Below, piece by piece: positions 1 through 45,288 of a stretch of DNA of 47,647 bases. The stretch comes from Bacillota bacterium (GTDB taxonomy: Bacteria > Bacillota > DTU030 > DUMP01): the NCBI GenBank assembly GCA_012837285.1, contig DURJ01000131.1:1-47647 (forward strand), given 5' to 3'. Position numbers and translations under genes: made by a program. A model generated the notes under the pieces. It was not told the DNA's origin and made no database searches. It saw nothing but the letters and a program-made list of their open reading frames with translations. Position 1 is the first letter of the stretch. Each line of letters starts with the position of its first letter.

Positions 1-322
1 GTAGCACCCAGCTTCACCGCTGGGTGAGGATTGAAACCCTGTCGATAAGCAGCAAGACGCCACCAAAAACAGTAGCACCCAGCTTCACCGCCGGGTGAGG
101 ATTGAAACGCCGAGAACGTGCCCATCGACCTCTTCCAAAGGCGTAGCACCCAGCTTCACCGCTGGGTGAGGATTGAAACTGGCGATGGTACCGGAAATGT
201 AGGAAAACGGTACCGTAGCACCCAGCTTCACCGCTGGGTGAGGATTGAAACCCGTCGCGTACGGGGTAGGCAGTTGGTTTTTGCGGTAGCACCCAGCTGC
301 ACCACTGAGTGGGAATTGAAAC
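1..322 (+). CRISPR. CRISPR array, trailing end (5 repeats, 4 spacers)
   Basis: Five 37-nt repeats start at 1, 72, 143, 215 and 286. Spacers are 34, 34, 35 and 34 nt. The repeat begins GTAGCACCCAGC, contains a hairpin (ACCCAG/CTGGGT) and ends GAGGATTGAAAC, the typical 3' handle, so the array reads on the + strand. Repeat 2 has one substitution in the stem. Repeat 5 is degenerate at several positions, as expected for the leader-distal end. The array starts exactly at base 1, so more repeats, the leader and any cas genes would lie to the left. Subtype cannot be assigned from the repeat alone. Confidence 0.97.
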
Positions 323-2158: not shown

Positions 2159-3073
2159 ATGAACGGTGTATTGGCTATAGTGCTGGCCGGTGTTTTCTGG
2201 GGTTCGGTGGGTTTGTTCGCGCGCTTTTTGGGTGCGTATCAGCTCAGTCCGTTCTACATTGTGGTTTTGCGCACTTCGTTCGCCGTGTTGTGTTTAGGGC
2301 TTTATTTAGCTTTATTCAGGCGTGAGCTGTTGGTGATAAGACGAGAGGACAGGTGGCGGTTTTTGTTAGCCGGGTTTGTTAGCATTGTTCTGGCTCATCC
2401 GGCGCTGTTTCTGGCCCTGGAAGCCAACGCCATCGCCGTGGCGACAATTCTTTTGTATACGGCGCCTTTTTATGTCATTATTCTGTCCCGCTTCATTTTC
2501 AAGGAGACGATCACTGGGCGCAAATGCGCGGCTTTGCTGCTGGCTGTGGCCGGATTGGCGCTAGTTGTTAATATCTTTGATTTGGGCAGTCTGGCTGTTA
2601 CACCGGCGGGACTGGGTCTCGGTCTAGTGGCCGGTTTCTTACAGGGCGTGCAGACAATAACGATGAAGAACGTTTCCGCTCGTTATCATGCTGCTACGGC
2701 CTTGTTCTACTCCTTTGGTTCCGGGCTGGTTATGTTGTGGTTGATCCTGCTGCTTGTGGGGGTTCCCATGCCAGTTAACTTGCCGGGGCAAGTATGGCTG
2801 GGCGTGGTGGGCATAGGGGTAATGACTACACTGACACCTTTTCTGCTGTTTACCTACGGATTGCAGCGGACGGAAGCAGGTACAGCCAGTATTGCCTCTA
2901 TGTTGGAACCTGTTGCTGCCGGGCTGTTCGGTTATTTTGGGCTGGGGGAGCGGCTAGAGCCGATTCAGATCGTAGGCATGGGGCTGATGTTGGCCGGCAT
3001 CGTTATTGCTACTCTGCCGGCGAAGGCTGTGGATGGGAGCTCGGCTCCTAAGCCGGAGGTGCCGCCGGTTTAA
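2159..3073 (+). CDS. EamA/DMT-family exporter
   Basis: A 304-aa integral membrane protein with about ten hydrophobic helices in two repeated halves, the layout of EamA (drug/metabolite transporter) proteins. Typical family features are visible: the N-terminal GVFWGSVGLFAR segment, and the ending LEPVAAGLFGYFGLGE, where the conserved Glu-Pro and the final Gly-Glu of the second EamA repeat occur. The frame stays open further upstream, but ATG 2159 begins exactly at the first membrane helix and is preferred. The substrate cannot be inferred; members export metabolites or amino acids. The gene stands alone, about 100 nt after the BcsB-like fragment. Confidence 0.88.
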   Translation: MNGVLAIVLAGVFWGSVGLFARFLGAYQLSPFYIVVLRTSFAVLCLGLYLALFRRELLVIRREDRWRFLLAGFVSIVLAHPALFLALEANAIAVATILLYTAPFYVIILSRFIFKETITGRKCAALLLAVAGLALVVNIFDLGSLAVTPAGLGLGLVAGFLQGVQTITMKNVSARYHAATALFYSFGSGLVMLWLILLLVGVPMPVNLPGQVWLGVVGIGVMTTLTPFLLFTYGLQRTEAGTASIASMLEPVAAGLFGYFGLGERLEPIQIVGMGLMLAGIVIATLPAKAVDGSSAPKPEVPPV

Positions 3074-3128
3074 CCGGTGGTGGAAATAAGCTCGTCAGAC
3101 TGCCCGAAAGCCTGCCAATCCATGTTTG

Positions 3129-3182
3129 GATCACCCTGAACTCAGTGAACAGTCTTAGATCCTCCGCTTTGCTCAGGATGAC
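3129..3182. repeat. REP-like dispersed repeat
   Basis: On the minus strand this begins GTCATCCTGAGCAAAGCGGA, followed by GGATCT, and ends with a partial complementary copy (TTCAGGGTGATC). The pattern GTCATCCTGAGC-AAGC-GGATCT is a widespread intergenic dispersed repeat type in bacterial genomes, usually forming an imperfect hairpin. It lies in the 298-nt gap between the EamA gene and the 52-codon gene; nothing else is recognised in that gap before the promoter at 3296. Confidence 0.5.
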
Positions 3183-3295
3183 AATCTTGACAATCCCTTC
3201 ATAACGTGACTTTTGACACGATCTACCGTTGTGATGCTGATGCCACCTATAAGCAGGGAACGACCGGGCGATAAGAAGGGTTTATGCTAAAGGCG

Positions 3296-3349
3296 TTGAC
3301 TTTTGGCTAAGGATTGTATACAATAATACACAAATACCAGTATACAATA
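3296..3349 (+). promoter_or_regulatory. Sigma-A promoter overlapped by GntR-type operators
   Basis: TTGACT (3296-3301), a 17-bp spacer and TACAAT (3319-3324) form a near-consensus promoter. The perfect palindrome ATTGTATACAAT (3313-3324) covers the -10 box. A second GTATAC core (3340-3345) follows 24 bp centre to centre, close to the start site. TNGTATACNA palindromes are typical targets of FadR-subfamily GntR repressors, and such a gene starts at 3798. The arrangement predicts repression of the small gene at 3372. Confidence 0.75.
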
Positions 3350-3371
3350 TCACTCCGGGGAGGTGCCCGCC

Positions 3372-3530
3372 ATGAAGGCCTGTACTCAAGATAATATGGG
3401 TTATCTGTTTGACCAGTACTTGGTCACGGAGTTAGGGAGCGGCCAGAGGCTCTCTATGGTAGACACGTTAAGTCTGTGGATGAATCTGTTACAACGGGAC
3501 TATTTACGCAGCCGACCGTTGGAAGACTAG
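3372..3530 (+). CDS. Small protein, 52 aa, unknown function
   Basis: ATG at 3372 follows a GGGGAGG ribosome binding site (3356-3362). The frame encodes 52 residues: start MKACTQDNMGYLFDQYLVTE, end YLRSRPLED. It is acidic-basic mixed, predicted largely helical, with no signal peptide or membrane segment. I do not recognise a family. The supporting evidence is contextual: its own near-consensus promoter with an operator palindrome on the -10 box, a good ribosome binding site, and a perfect intrinsic terminator 45 nt after the stop, so it looks like a monocistronic regulated gene. It may be a small modulator of the neighbouring GntR regulator or of metabolism; that is only inference. Confidence 0.65.
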   Translation: MKACTQDNMGYLFDQYLVTELGSGQRLSMVDTLSLWMNLLQRDYLRSRPLED

Positions 3531-3574
3531 CGGGTAAGGCTAAACCAGTTGTCTAGCAGGCTTCTCTTAAGATA

Positions 3575-3610
3575 GCACCTGTGCCCTAAGAAGCACAGGT
3601 GCCTTTTTCT
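3575..3610 (+). terminator. Intrinsic terminator of the 52-aa gene
   Basis: A perfect 10-bp stem GCACCTGTGC/GCACAGGTGC with an 8-nt loop is followed by CTTTTT. It closes the small-gene transcript before the GntR gene. Confidence 0.92.
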
Positions 3611-3681
3611 GACTGGCCGAGGGTGATCTAGGTCCGGGAATGAAACCGGATGTGGAGACCGGGAACCGGGCTGTTATGTTC

Positions 3682-3710
3682 TTGCAGTATCCGTGGACAT
3701 GGCATACAAT
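3682..3710 (+). promoter_or_regulatory. Sigma-A promoter of the GntR gene
   Basis: TTGCAG (3682-3687), a 17-bp spacer and TACAAT (3705-3710). The -10 region reads GCATACAATG, sharing ATACAAT with the operators at 3313 and 3340, so weak autoregulation is possible. Confidence 0.7.
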
Positions 3711-3797
3711 GATAGCAATTAGCGGTATGGCCTGGTACAGAAGGCTGGCAGAGTTTGGACTCGGTTAAGGGTGGTACGGGATTGCAGGGAGGGATAG

Positions 3798-4499
3798 ATG
3801 TTGCCACGACGGGGGGACGGTGGTCGGGGCCGGGGTAGAGCAGCAGTGCTCAGGAACAGTATTTTTTTTCAACTTCGGGATGACATTCTTAAAGGTCGGT
3901 TTGAACCGGGTGAGAGCCTGGTGGAACTGAAGTTGGCTGCTCACTACGGTGTGAGTCGGACGCCGGTTAGGGAAGCGTTAAGGCAATTGGAGCTGGAAGG
4001 GTTGGTAAGATATCTGCCGAACCGCGGCGTGTTGGTAGAGGGAATAACGGCTGAAGATGTGGAGGATATCTTTGTTATTCGTGAGCACTTAGAGACGTTG
4101 GTAGCCAACTGGGCGGCGCAGCGGGTTCAGCCGGAAGAGATAAGGAAAATGCAGGAAGTTTTGGATCTGCAGGAGTTTTATACTACTAAGGACGATATTG
4201 AGCAAGTGACAGTGCTTGATACGGAATTTCATCGCCTGCTGTTGGATGCCAGCCGCAGCAAGTCTTTACGCTATGCTTTGGGGAGTATGTTAGATTATGT
4301 GGAGCAGGCTCGATTTCGCTCGCTGCGGGTCCCTGGGCGGATCCACGACTCGATGCGGGAACACCGGAGTATCCTCGAGGCGGTGGCGGCTGGCCAGGCC
4401 GAACTGGCTGGGGAGCGAATGGCCGAGCACATGCGACGAGCCCGACAAAACGTGTTAAGCTTCACTTCGGAAGGAAAAGAGAACAGCAGAAGCAACTAA
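3798..4499 (+). CDS. GntR-family (FadR subfamily) transcriptional regulator
   Basis: A 233-aa regulator. Residues about 18-85 form the GntR winged helix-turn-helix; the signature VSRTPVREALRQLELEGLV is clear. Residues about 95-225 form the all-helical FCD effector domain, with the metal/ligand residues expected for it: Asp and His in DTEFHRLL, His in EHRSILEAV and His in MAEHMRRA. FCD regulators usually respond to small organic acids or related metabolites. The N-terminus carries an extra Arg/Gly-rich stretch (residues 4-15). GTATAC palindromes at 3313 and 3340 are probable binding sites. It is followed by its own terminator. Confidence 0.9.
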   Translation: MLPRRGDGGRGRGRAAVLRNSIFFQLRDDILKGRFEPGESLVELKLAAHYGVSRTPVREALRQLELEGLVRYLPNRGVLVEGITAEDVEDIFVIREHLETLVANWAAQRVQPEEIRKMQEVLDLQEFYTTKDDIEQVTVLDTEFHRLLLDASRSKSLRYALGSMLDYVEQARFRSLRVPGRIHDSMREHRSILEAVAAGQAELAGERMAEHMRRARQNVLSFTSEGKENSRSN

Positions 4500-4501
4500 A
4501 T

Positions 4502-4525
4502 GCCTGGGGTGACCAGGCCTTTTTT
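4502..4525 (+). terminator. Intrinsic terminator after the GntR gene
   Basis: Stem GCCTGG (4502-4507) pairs with CCAGGC (4513-4518), followed by CTTTTTT, immediately after the GntR stop codon. Confidence 0.85.
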
Positions 4526-4599
4526 ATACTTAGACCAGGAGAATTGGGGCAATATATGACCGCTGTCTTCTTGCAAAGCTAGAACGGGGAGGGTTTACG

Positions 4600-7500
4600 C
4601 TGGATATCAAGGAATTGCGTAGTAGGGAGGAGCAATTTCAGGCAATTGTGGGCCGGGAGCTGAAGAAGCTAACGCGACATAAAACCATCGACGTTGTGGT
4701 GGGGGTGCCTTTTTATAACGAGCAGGAAACCCTGGCTCAAGTGGTGACTACAGCGGCCCAGGGGTTGAGCCCGTTTATTAATGTTCGGCCCCTGGTGGTG
4801 TGCGTGGGTGATCCGGCCGGGGCCCAGGCGTTGGCATCCCTGGAAGGGCTTAAAACAGGTATGCCTTGTCACGGGTTTTTGTTGACGGACGGCGTCAACG
4901 GACGGGGCTTCAGTATCCGGGCCATACTGGAAATTGCTCGGGAGCTAGCCGCCGATGTGGTGTTGTTGGAGGCAGACCTAAGGCGGAAGGGCGATCAAGG
5001 CTTTAACCCTTCTTGGTTGGAGCGCTTGTATTTCCCCCTGTTGCAAGATTACGATTTAGTCAGTGGTTGTTTCCGTCGTCATTACTTCGAAGACCCCACT
5101 GGGAGCTTGTTTGTGGGGCCGATGCTGGAGAGCTTCTTTGGCTTAAGGTTGCGCGATCCTCTCAGCGGTGTGTACGGAATTTCCCGCCGGCTGGTAGAAG
5201 ATTATTGTACCGATCTGGACTGGTGGTACGGTGGTGCCGGCGGGTATGGTGTTGATCCTTGGCTGTTGGCCCAAGCGGTAGTGTGGGATAAGAAGATTTG
5301 CGAGGTGAGTTTGGGAGCCAAAATTGGTCCTCCGGCTTTGAGCAAACGGTCTTACGTATTTAAGCAGCTCGCGCTGTCGCTGTTTGATTGTATCAAGGTA
5401 AATGAGGACTACTGGCTCAAATCCCAACTGATCTTGAAACAACCGGACATCTATGGCTTGGAAGCCCGGGATCGGGCGCCGGAGCTCAGCTGTCATCTAG
5501 GGGATCTTGTGGCCAGCTTCACACTTGGTTTTGATCAGTATAGTTCCTTGCTGGCTCGGGTACTGCCGGAAGAGAATTATGCAGCGGTGGAAAAGGTAGC
5601 TCTAACGGCTGAAACAGAGCCAGAATTCAGTTCTAAACTGTGGAGTGCGGTGGTTTACAGCTTTCTTCAGACCTATGTCTTCGCCGACGGCGTGGAAGCA
5701 GAGGATATCATGGAAGGACTGAGGATCGTCTATGACGGTCGCTTAGCTGCTTTTATTGCCGGCGTGAGTAAATTTTCTTACCTGATTAGTGAAGTAAAAC
5801 ACCTGGATAAAGAAGAGCTCACATACAAACAAGTTGAACGGCTGCGCGGAGATCAGGTGGCGGAGTTCTTAGACGGCAAGAGCGGATTCATTAAGACCTG
5901 GGTGGAACGAGCGGCGGAAGTTCGACCGGTGATCACTCCCTTGGACTACCTGGAATTCATTCCCGGGGTACCGCTGGCCTTACCTAAGGACCTGACCGGT
6001 ATTGGTGGGTTACCAGTTAGGGCGAAAACAGTGTTTCGTCGTCTAGAGGAACGCTATAGCGACGCCTTTCACCGGTTTATTCATGCTGGCTTGGGTCTGG
6101 ACGCTGCTCTAACGTCGGCTGAGCTGGGCGCAGAGCTAGAAGGGTTCATGGCTGAGTTAGAACAGATGGCGGACAGACTGGTGCCGGGGAATTTAGCCAC
6201 GGCCGCAGGAACCAAACAGGCGGTGGAGCGAGTCTTCGAGCTGATCCCCCACCAGAAAATTTTAGCGGTGAAAGAAGAGATATTACGTCAACTGCTGACG
6301 GAGTTTCCGCCCTTGAACCTGCTGATCCAACTGGGCTACTCCAGCACCGGCGAACTGCTCAGCCACTTTGAGGTGCGGGATGCGCTGGCCTTGGCCGGTA
6401 TCAGCGAGGAACGGGAGTATACGGACCGTCTGCTCTGGTGGCTGGGGGATAACTTGCGTCCTGACAGTTTGGAAGAAGTGAACATGAGGCCGCTGGTATT
6501 TACTCCGGAGACCTTTCCTGGAGTGGGGGAGCTAAGGGACATATCTCATTTTGACCGGCTGGCCGCCCGACTTACAGTAAGTAATCTGCCTAAGGGACTA
6601 GGCGGCTCCTTTCCAAAATTGCGTTACTTTACCCATGTGGCCAAGATTTTGGTGGAAGCGGAGCATTATTCTTTTATCTGGCAGGCGTATGCCCGGGAAC
6701 GCAAAGGGTTTGGACTTAAACTGGTGAACTCAGTTATTAAGCACCGTGGGCGAGAGGTTTTCTCGGCTGCTAACATCTTTCAGAATTGGCATCAACGGGA
6801 GCTGACTCAGCGGGTGCAGTTGTTGGCGGAGCAACTGAAAACCAAAAACCAGACCAAAGAGGCACGGCTGCTGGAATTGATGGCCGAGGGCTATGGCCTC
6901 AGCCTAACTTTGGGCGACGGGACTTTTGTTCCTTGCTCGGCTTGGACCTGGGCCAGCTATAGTTTTCGCGGCGGCCAAGGAATTCCCACTCCGCTGTCAG
7001 TACGGATCGAGCGCGATTGGTTTCACCACGATTTACTAGAAGAAATATATAAGGAGATGGGCTTTCGGCCCCAGGATATCATGGTGGAAGCCATTAGGCG
7101 CATTGGCGAGGGCCGGGAGGCCACCAGTCTGCTCGATGCTGTTTTGCGCGGTCCAGCGCAGGAAGAAGTGGTTTTGGTTCAAGATGTGGATTCGTACCCG
7201 CCGGCTGGGCAGCTAATACGCCACGAACTGAATCCCTTACTGGAACCCATTGAGGAGCATTACTGGGAAAGCCGTTACGTGCTCAATGCCGCTACGGTGC
7301 GCTTAGACGGGAAGGTGTACGTGCTTTATCGAGCCTTCGGCGAGGATGAAATATCTCGGATCGGACTGGCAATTTTCCACGGGGCTCGGTTGTTAGAACG
7401 GTTGCCGGAGCCGGTGTTCGGCCCGGTGATCCCAGAGGAAAGCCGCGGTTGTGAAGACCCGCGGGTGGTTGTGATTGATGATCGACTGTACATGGTTTAT

Positions 7501-8169
7501 ACGGCCTACAATGGAGTTATTGCCCAGGTGGCAGCGGCGGCCATCGGTATCGATGACTTTTTGGCCCGTCGATTCCAGCGCTTTGAGCACTTGGGCTTGG
7601 CTTTCCCCGGCCTCTGGGACAAAGATGCGATCTTGTTTCCGGAACAGGTGGGTGGGCGTTGGGTAATGTATCACCGGGTAGAGCCCAGCATCTGGGTGTC
7701 TTATGCCAGTGAGCTGCAACTGCCGTGGCCCAAACAAAATCATAAGATTATCATCGGGCCGCGTTCAGGGCTGATGTGGGATTCGCTTAAGATAGGGTCC
7801 GGCTCACAGCCAATTAAGACCAAGTACGGTTGGCTCCTTATTTACCATGGGGTTAGCAACACCATGGTGTACCGGTTAGGAGTTATTCTGGTGGATATGG
7901 AGGATCCGGGGCGTCTGCTGTATCGTTCGCCCAATCCCATCTTGTCTCCGGAGACGGAACTTGAGGTGGGTGCTCCGGGACGCTCGTGGGTACCCAATGT
8001 GGTCTTTACTTGCGGGGCCGTACCGGGGGCAGATAAAGAAGTGCTGGACGATAATGACCAGGTGCTTTGCTACTACGGTGCCTCCGATACTTATCTTTGC
8101 CTGGCTTCGGCCACAGTAGCCGAGCTAATCCCGGAGGCAGTGCGCCGGCGCATTGGCCGGAGACGATAA
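4600..8169 (+). CDS. Large fusion: GT-A glycosyltransferase plus GH130-type domain
   Basis: About 1,189 residues. Residues 1-300 look like a GT-A glycosyltransferase of the glucosyl-3-phosphoglycerate/mannosylglycerate synthase kind: VVVGVPFYNEQETLAQVV nucleotide-binding segment, an acidic LEADLR motif in the DXD position, and DPLSGVYGISRRL plus YGVDPWLLAQAV further on. Residues about 300-870 are an alpha-rich region I do not recognise. Residues about 870-1180 match GH130 mannoside phosphorylases/mannosidases: RYVLNAATVRLDGKVYVLYR, then GCEDPRVV with the candidate catalytic Asp, KDAILFPE and LLIYHGV. Start choice: TTG 4617-frame start at 4615 is too far from the strong GGGGAGGG site (4586-4593); in-frame CTG 4600 sits 6 nt after it. 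Known GH130 enzymes cleave or phosphorolyse beta-mannosides, so the fusion may make or remodel a mannoside or compatible solute; this is inference. Confidence 0.8.
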   Translation: MDIKELRSREEQFQAIVGRELKKLTRHKTIDVVVGVPFYNEQETLAQVVTTAAQGLSPFINVRPLVVCVGDPAGAQALASLEGLKTGMPCHGFLLTDGVNGRGFSIRAILEIARELAADVVLLEADLRRKGDQGFNPSWLERLYFPLLQDYDLVSGCFRRHYFEDPTGSLFVGPMLESFFGLRLRDPLSGVYGISRRLVEDYCTDLDWWYGGAGGYGVDPWLLAQAVVWDKKICEVSLGAKIGPPALSKRSYVFKQLALSLFDCIKVNEDYWLKSQLILKQPDIYGLEARDRAPELSCHLGDLVASFTLGFDQYSSLLARVLPEENYAAVEKVALTAETEPEFSSKLWSAVVYSFLQTYVFADGVEAEDIMEGLRIVYDGRLAAFIAGVSKFSYLISEVKHLDKEELTYKQVERLRGDQVAEFLDGKSGFIKTWVERAAEVRPVITPLDYLEFIPGVPLALPKDLTGIGGLPVRAKTVFRRLEERYSDAFHRFIHAGLGLDAALTSAELGAELEGFMAELEQMADRLVPGNLATAAGTKQAVERVFELIPHQKILAVKEEILRQLLTEFPPLNLLIQLGYSSTGELLSHFEVRDALALAGISEEREYTDRLLWWLGDNLRPDSLEEVNMRPLVFTPETFPGVGELRDISHFDRLAARLTVSNLPKGLGGSFPKLRYFTHVAKILVEAEHYSFIWQAYARERKGFGLKLVNSVIKHRGREVFSAANIFQNWHQRELTQRVQLLAEQLKTKNQTKEARLLELMAEGYGLSLTLGDGTFVPCSAWTWASYSFRGGQGIPTPLSVRIERDWFHHDLLEEIYKEMGFRPQDIMVEAIRRIGEGREATSLLDAVLRGPAQEEVVLVQDVDSYPPAGQLIRHELNPLLEPIEEHYWESRYVLNAATVRLDGKVYVLYRAFGEDEISRIGLAIFHGARLLERLPEPVFGPVIPEESRGCEDPRVVVIDDRLYMVYTAYNGVIAQVAAAAIGIDDFLARRFQRFEHLGLAFPGLWDKDAILFPEQVGGRWVMYHRVEPSIWVSYASELQLPWPKQNHKIIIGPRSGLMWDSLKIGSGSQPIKTKYGWLLIYHGVSNTMVYRLGVILVDMEDPGRLLYRSPNPILSPETELEVGAPGRSWVPNVVFTCGAVPGADKEVLDDNDQVLCYYGASDTYLCLASATVAELIPEAVRRRIGRRR

Positions 8170-9069: not shown

Positions 9070-9098
9070 ACCATGACCAAGCTGGGGGAAACCAATAC

Positions 9099-9238
9099 CT
9101 TCTCCCATCCGGACTATACCGTCGGCTCTGGATTATACCAGATCAACCACTGTCGTGGCTCGCGGGCTCATCTCGGCTTAGACCGAGTTTCACCGCCGGT
9201 CAGGAATTAGAGGCTCTGCCTCTGCACCTTGCCCTGAA
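9099..9238 (-). ncRNA. FMN riboswitch (RFN element)
   Basis: On the minus strand the conserved blocks appear in order: AGGTGCAGAGGCAGAGCC-like 5' part, CCGGCGGTGAAACTCGGT, AGCCCGCGAGCC and the closing GTCCGGATGGGAGAAGG. These are the hallmarks of the FMN aptamer. It precedes a terminator hairpin and ribU, so FMN binding should favour termination. Confidence 0.97.
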
Positions 9239-9256
9239 GGACTTCTTCCTTATTCA

Positions 9257-45177: not shown

Positions 45178-45288
45178 ACTCTCATCTGCCAGGACTTAAG
45201 TCCTGCTGGAATTGGCACCATACCGCGTATGGGCGGCTGGTTGCCGAGGTTTCACCGGGCCAGTCCCTCCACCTCTCTGGATAAGAGC
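45178..45288 (-). ncRNA. SAM-I riboswitch (S box)
   Basis: On the minus strand it reads CTCTTATCCAGAGAGGTGGA, then GGGACTGGCCCGGTGAAACC, CGGCAACC, and closes with GATGAGAG pairing back to the start. This is the SAM-I aptamer. With the following terminator it should switch off metNIQ when SAM is plentiful. Confidence 0.97.

Follow-up and report, generated by a model that had tools for sequence, protein, structure and literature searches.

Several small proteins, such as SgrT, the cyanobacterial glutamine-synthetase inactivating factors and PirA, are known to tune metabolic enzymes or transporters. By description, the 52-aa protein dealt with in this study resembles them in its size, its separate promoter and its presumed docking via a short conserved segment. 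Another small protein, Pid of phage P22 (86 aa), derepresses the dgo operon controlled by DgoR, and an excess of DgoR abolishes this derepression (PMC3573128). The operators of FadR-subfamily regulators are given, in the account available in PMC4494728, as A/T-rich palindromes with TKGT/ACMA boxes at a spacing of 3 or 2, and these sites often carry a weaker half-site 7–12 nt from the centre.

The locus examined here lies in a window of 47,647 nucleotides, i.e., the whole stretch of DNA analysed (contig DURJ01000131.1 of a Bacillota bacterium), and it shares several properties with the FadR/FCD-subfamily systems as described in PMC4494728. These are a regulator with GntR and FCD domains, an A/T-rich TKGT/ACMA palindrome with a 2-nt GT-AC spacing, an extra half-site approximately 7–11 nt from the centre of the palindrome, and apparent self-regulation. 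Unlike those systems, the nearest putatively regulated gene in the window encodes a tiny orphan protein and is not an enzyme/transporter operon. The small gene, the regulator gene (gntR) and the gene of a glycosyltransferase-GH130 fusion enzyme (GT-GH130) follow one another in this order on one strand in all six loci of the window's family, and their features in the window are listed below.

3296..3324, plus strand: sigma-70-type promoter of the small gene, TTGACT-17-TACAAT; TTGAC and the -10 region unchanged in 6/6 loci
3313..3329, plus strand: probable GntR operator ATTGTATACAAT with a conserved AATAC box; the 15-mer TGTATACAATAATAC (3315–3329) invariant in 6/6 loci
3340..3345, plus strand: second GTATAC core; exact only in G000 and G001
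3357..3363, plus strand: Shine-Dalgarno sequence GGGGAGG; a G-rich site at the equivalent place in all six loci
3372..3530, plus strand: gene of the 52-aa small protein; homologues in 6/8 family genomes, under purifying selection
3498..3527, plus strand: conserved C-terminal motif DYLRSRPLED; an invariant L, then RPLED
3558..3564, plus strand: AGGCTTC in the 3' untranslated region of the small gene; (A/T)GGCTTC in 6/6 loci
3575..3608, plus strand: intrinsic terminator; hairpin and T-run in all six loci
3682..3710, plus strand: separate gntR promoter TTGCAG-17-TACAAT with the operator-like ATGGCATACAAT (3699–3710); TTGCnn-17-TACAAT in 6/6 loci
3798..4499, plus strand: GntR-family regulator of the FCD (FadR) type; Pfam GntR 5.5e-19, FCD 2.4e-27
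4600..8169, plus strand: glycosyltransferase-like N-terminus fused to a GH130 beta-1,2-mannoside phosphorylase; adjoins gntR in 6/6 loci

The first-pass annotation had reported a promoter, the palindrome ATTGTATACAAT on its -10 box, a Shine-Dalgarno sequence, an open frame of 52 codons and a strong terminator at this locus, and we located every one of them. The promoter of the small gene, as obtained from reading the sequence and from scans, consists of TTGACT at 3296–3301, a spacer of 17 bases and TACAAT at 3319–3324, and was the sole promoter-like site found by the scan within 3050–4650, with 10/12 matches. This match alone is not significant, as shuffled sequences contained 1.1 such sites on average; since chance yields approximately one consensus promoter per such region, the significance of the site rests on its conservation. 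The frame starts with ATG at 3372 and stops at 3528–3530, and the terminator has a stem of 10 pairs (3575–3602) followed by the T-run. Six genomes share the frame, the promoter and the terminator. The (A/T)GGCTTC sequence is placed shortly 5' of the terminator stem in 6/6 loci.

A single-protein search of 101 genomes, namely the window's own genome and its relatives, gave clear homologues of the small protein in G004 (E 1.0e-8) and G001 (E 1.1e-6); in G003 and G006 the matches were weak, and reading the DNA identified both as the same small gene. A sixth homologue was recognized in G005, by reading the sequence on the 5' side of the GntR orthologue. The homologues in G000, G001, G003, G004, G005 and G006 are 48–57 aa in length, and showed E-values of 1.8e-16 to 6.5e-28 against a six-member profile which contains these same members. 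All six frames are open and end with (S/T)RPLED-stop, the differences in length among them are frame-keeping, and M1, L45, R48, P49, L50, E51 and D52 are invariant in the alignment of the six. The start codon is ATG in G000, G001 and G004, and GTG in G003, G005 and G006. We found that the codons for RPLED vary silently, the six variants being CGA CCG TTG GAA GAC, CGT CCT TTG GAG GAC, CGA CCG CTG GAA GAT, CGT CCC CTG GAG GAC, CGT CCC TTA GAG GAC and CGC CCC CTG GAG GAC. In the closest pair, G003 and G006, the differences at codon positions 1, 2 and 3 numbered 12, 8 and 21, respectively; of the 55 codons, 17 differed synonymously and 16 non-synonymously. The pS and pN values of this pair were 0.52 vs 0.16 over the whole frame and 0.68 vs 0.03 over the last 14 codons, and as much amino-acid identity was kept in 3 of 5000 column shuffles. 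The other pairs gave pS values of 0.59–0.98, and pN values of 0.15–0.38 over the last 14 codons. The earlier view that the small frame is a gene is thus borne out by codons conserved with frame-preserving changes in six homologues, and by the excess of synonymous over non-synonymous changes. We conclude that the small gene is almost certainly real and protein-coding, its translation being predicted from these substitution patterns.

Six of the eight genomes of the window's family, a small group of uncultured bacteria, have a homologue of the small gene directly 5' of an orthologous GntR (FCD) gene. In the remaining members, G002 and G007, the contig ends before the place of the small gene, the GT-GH130 copy being cut by the contig end (G002:C49 to 15783/15802; G007:C19 to 9863/9892), and the GntR orthologue is likewise missing, so that the absence of the small gene from these genomes is, as far as can be told, an assembly gap. 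When 398 genomes of the phylum were searched with the six-member profile, six strong matches were obtained, all within the window's family (8 genomes), and no relative of the small gene was seen outside it. The 40 further genomes among the 46 that reached E 0.5 were dropped as chance matches, the best of them (E 0.005) containing two internal stops. A single-sequence search of genome contigs gave no match to the small gene, and a profile search of genome contigs matched 18 stretches, of which the two confirmed were only the G004 and G001 members again. The search of plasmids gave one weak place (E 1), and none of the eight pattern matches in viral contigs was confirmed. In line with the first-pass statement that the protein matches nothing known, Pfam, NCBIfam and PHROGs assigned no family to any of the six members, and a search of the PDB with the small-protein profile gave nothing better than E 0.84. 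PADLOC assigned no family to the small protein of the window, and a toxin-antitoxin reading is given little weight.

The exact palindrome ATTGTATACAAT occupies 3313–3324, on the -10 box. Three of the six loci (G000, G004 and G006) have the perfect 12-bp palindrome, and all six have its core TGTATACAAT. The arrangement TTGT-AT-ACAA fits the FadR-subfamily motif at spacing 2, and the invariant AATAC, approximately 7–11 nt from the palindrome centre, fits the extra half-site, as both are described in PMC4494728. The palindrome of the small gene therefore has the operator form of the FadR subfamily, with binding by GntR being putative; a literature search found no paper pairing TTGTATACAA with GntR. 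The peptide and the operator both proved to be conserved next to the orthologous GntR gene. The second GTATAC core, which had been noted earlier, is present in the window, but its conservation is limited to two of the six loci. The 11-mer TTGTATACAAT occurs at a single place in the 2.17-Mb genome (listed on both strands, as the site is palindromic). A second exact copy of TGTATACAATAATAC was absent from the genomes of G000, G001, G003 and G006, and for G004 and G005, where the count covers the small-gene locus, one copy each was seen. For a metabolic regulator, it is unusual to have just one exact candidate operator in each genome. When three mismatches were allowed, the numbers of operator matches vs those of a reversed-pattern control were 40 vs 43 in G000, 11 vs 19 in G003 and 74 vs 55 in G004, so that weaker sites are indistinguishable from noise.

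Copies of the palindrome at G000:C117:55881 (1 mismatch), G002:C213 and G004:C87 were rejected, as they are located inside long frames. Another copy, at G004:C13, is located just 5' of a histidyl-tRNA-synthetase-like frame. At G002:C42 (L115, ~1431), TTGTATACAA and nearby further copies of GTATAC are located between two divergent frames, and this place looks like another GntR-type operator region.

Both domains of the regulator scored above the Pfam cut-offs (GntR, 68 bits, cut-off 27; FCD, 96.3 bits, cut-off 24.3). The metal site of FCD domains is composed of one Asp and three His residues. In an alignment of nine GntR homologues, LDxxxH, EH and a later H are invariant, and these are candidate residues of this site. 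The orthologues are 71–100% identical across the six assembled loci. The gntR promoter is placed 3' of the small-gene terminator in 6/6 loci, and is overlapped in the window by ATGGCATACAAT, a match to the palindrome with 2 mismatches; GTATAC was seen by eye near this promoter in only 4/6 loci. Since the palindrome of the small gene is placed on the -10 box, repression is predicted. Judging from this arrangement, the neighbouring GntR probably controls the small gene, and we infer that it represses both the small gene and itself, with the small protein as its main output. The last point, already put forward in the first-pass annotation, is made plausible by the lack of any second exact operator copy in the four genomes named above, whereas binding by GntR is itself putative, and paralogous GntR proteins exist.

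Homologues of the regulator outside the family were taken as the best 9 of 44 genomes at E 1e-45, and showed 46–55% identity. Inspected by eye (L102–L110), four of these nine have glnR-like and glutamine-synthetase genes as neighbours, and the other five adjoin isocitrate dehydrogenase, an aconitase-type protein or both. The regulator of the window resembles these homologues not only in overall identity; the same FCD Asp/His residues are present in the three that were aligned. Unlike the homologues of other families, beside which no small gene was found, the window's family has the small gene and GT-GH130 as neighbours instead. The neighbours outside the family hint at a citrate/2-oxoglutarate/glutamate context for GntR, and suggest that this FCD-type subgroup is, in several families, a regulator of 2-oxoglutarate/glutamate supply. 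Within the family, a search at E 1e-30 found isocitrate dehydrogenase in 3/8 and glutamine synthetase in 4/8 genomes, with neither enzyme found in G000, the window's own genome, and for this reason the idea that the small protein tunes either enzyme, prompted by those outside neighbours, is not supported as a general role. G000, G001, G002 and G004 have neither isocitrate dehydrogenase nor a glutamine synthetase of the searched type at this threshold, for which auxotrophy, a different type of enzyme or assembly gaps are possible explanations. Since neither enzyme was found in G000 at this threshold, the regulator may no longer have these targets and may have been retained for the small gene.

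What lies upstream of the small gene differs among the loci: G000 and G001 have an EamA-type transporter there, G004 has a CRISPR array, and G003, G005 and G006 have other genes (assigned by Pfam for G000 and by eye for the others), while the linkage of the small gene with gntR and the operator are kept together in 6/6 loci from four genera. Together with the FCD-type GntR regulator next to it, the small gene, which is genuine, monocistronic and confined to the family, makes up a module. The CRISPR array of G004 (L002 1–530) is located just upstream of the small gene, and CRISPR repeats open the window (1–251, Rfam CRISPR-DR9). Rfam also placed an FMN riboswitch at 9093–9245 and a SAM riboswitch at 45179–45287, both on the minus strand.

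The GH130 part of the third conserved gene is closest to beta-1,2-mannobiose phosphorylases, of which a Thermoanaerobacter pair is discussed in PMC4264767. Among the genomes searched, 14 from other families also have the GT-GH130 enzyme; the loci of 12 of these were examined, and none had a relative of the window's GntR in the flank covered (at most 1.5 kb, several being shorter). The enzyme thus exists elsewhere without the small gene and does not need the small protein in general. The GT-GH130 frame seemingly starts with CTG (4600) after GGGGAGGG in the window (4597–4620), and likewise in G004; the corresponding place reads ATG-CTG in G001 and ATG in G005.

We propose that, by binding the TTGTATACAA palindrome at the -10 box, a GntR dimer would exclude RNA polymerase, and that it would also hold its own promoter at 3682–3710. 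A small carboxylate-type metabolite would bind the FCD domain, causing GntR to release the DNA, and the small mRNA would then be made, ending at the terminator (3575–3608). The small protein may dock on a partner protein via its C-terminal helix and the RPLED tail, which is strictly kept, and alter the activity of that partner. As a guess, the adjacent GT-GH130 enzyme would be the first candidate partner, because it is the only other conserved neighbour. The AlphaFold model of the small protein, which is of low confidence (mean pLDDT 62.9, pTM 0.31), has helices at 7–20 and 29–47 and a non-helical RPLED tail; it is at most consistent with a docking peptide. The role of GntR as a repressor, the class of its ligand and the mode of docking are those that we infer for this locus. 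A module with repression by GntR, release by a carboxylate and docking of the small protein, with the partner left open, is the reading that we somewhat favour.

An alternative is that the small protein binds GntR itself, as an autogenous anti-repressor whose RPLED tail fits the FCD or the DNA-binding domain; it would modulate repression and thereby form a feedback loop, its target being the regulator instead of an enzyme. The occurrence of the small gene together with the GntR orthologue in 6/6 assembled loci, and its confinement to the family among the 398 phylum genomes, agree with this, and P22 Pid, which acts against the GntR-type repressor DgoR, provides a precedent (PMC3573128). Compared by description only, the two are alike as small orphan proteins functionally tied to a GntR-type repressor, and they differ in that Pid is phage-borne and acts on a regulator of the host (PMC3573128). 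However, the small gene is missing beside GntR homologues of other families, and with no further exact operator in G000, G001, G003 and G006 such a loop would have few other genes to act on. We regard this alternative as unlikely. Quite unlikely, too, is control of the promoter by a different regulator, e.g., a paralogous FCD-type GntR, with the neighbouring gntR linked by position only. The genomes of the family hold several FCD-type GntR paralogues each, similar TKGT/ACMA motifs are described for FCD regulators (PMC4494728), and one paralogue in G003 (C1:1678185) has TGTATACA just upstream and could therefore bind the small-gene operator. This is opposed by the joint conservation of linkage and operator across four genera despite the differing upstream neighbours, and by the operator-like sequence in the neighbouring gntR's own promoter.

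The transcript might also be a regulatory or leader RNA, in which the frame is incidental or serves as a leader peptide for gntR. An AGGCTTC-type element and a hairpin are indeed conserved 3' of the frame, and the 283-base transcript folds better than its shuffles (z -2.26). The codon-level constraint and the frame-keeping changes in length speak against such an RNA, as do the separate, conserved promoter of gntR beyond the terminator and the Rfam search at gathering score, in which none of the five matches in the window falls at 3296–3610. The RNA reading is therefore disfavoured, and we consider it very improbable.

Returning to the module of GntR repression and small-protein docking, neither isocitrate dehydrogenase nor glutamine synthetase, the usual neighbours of the regulator's relatives, was found at E 1e-30 in four of the eight family genomes, and the regulator may accordingly have been rewired onto the tiny gene. 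The furthest-reaching form of this idea, speculative and in our view rather unlikely, is a one-gene regulon, in which the sole strong site of a metabolite-sensing FCD regulator, besides that at its own promoter, would drive a lineage-specific small protein, which would act through its RPLED tail as a detachable subunit adjusting a metabolic enzyme, the GT-GH130 beta-1,2-mannan enzyme being the first candidate. If this were true, one small protein would be the entire route by which a transcription factor influences metabolism. The novelty of the locus is the small-protein family, the regulatory logic being ordinary. This family is missing from the libraries searched, and its linked regulator, near-unique operator and invariant C-terminal motif provide handles on its function.
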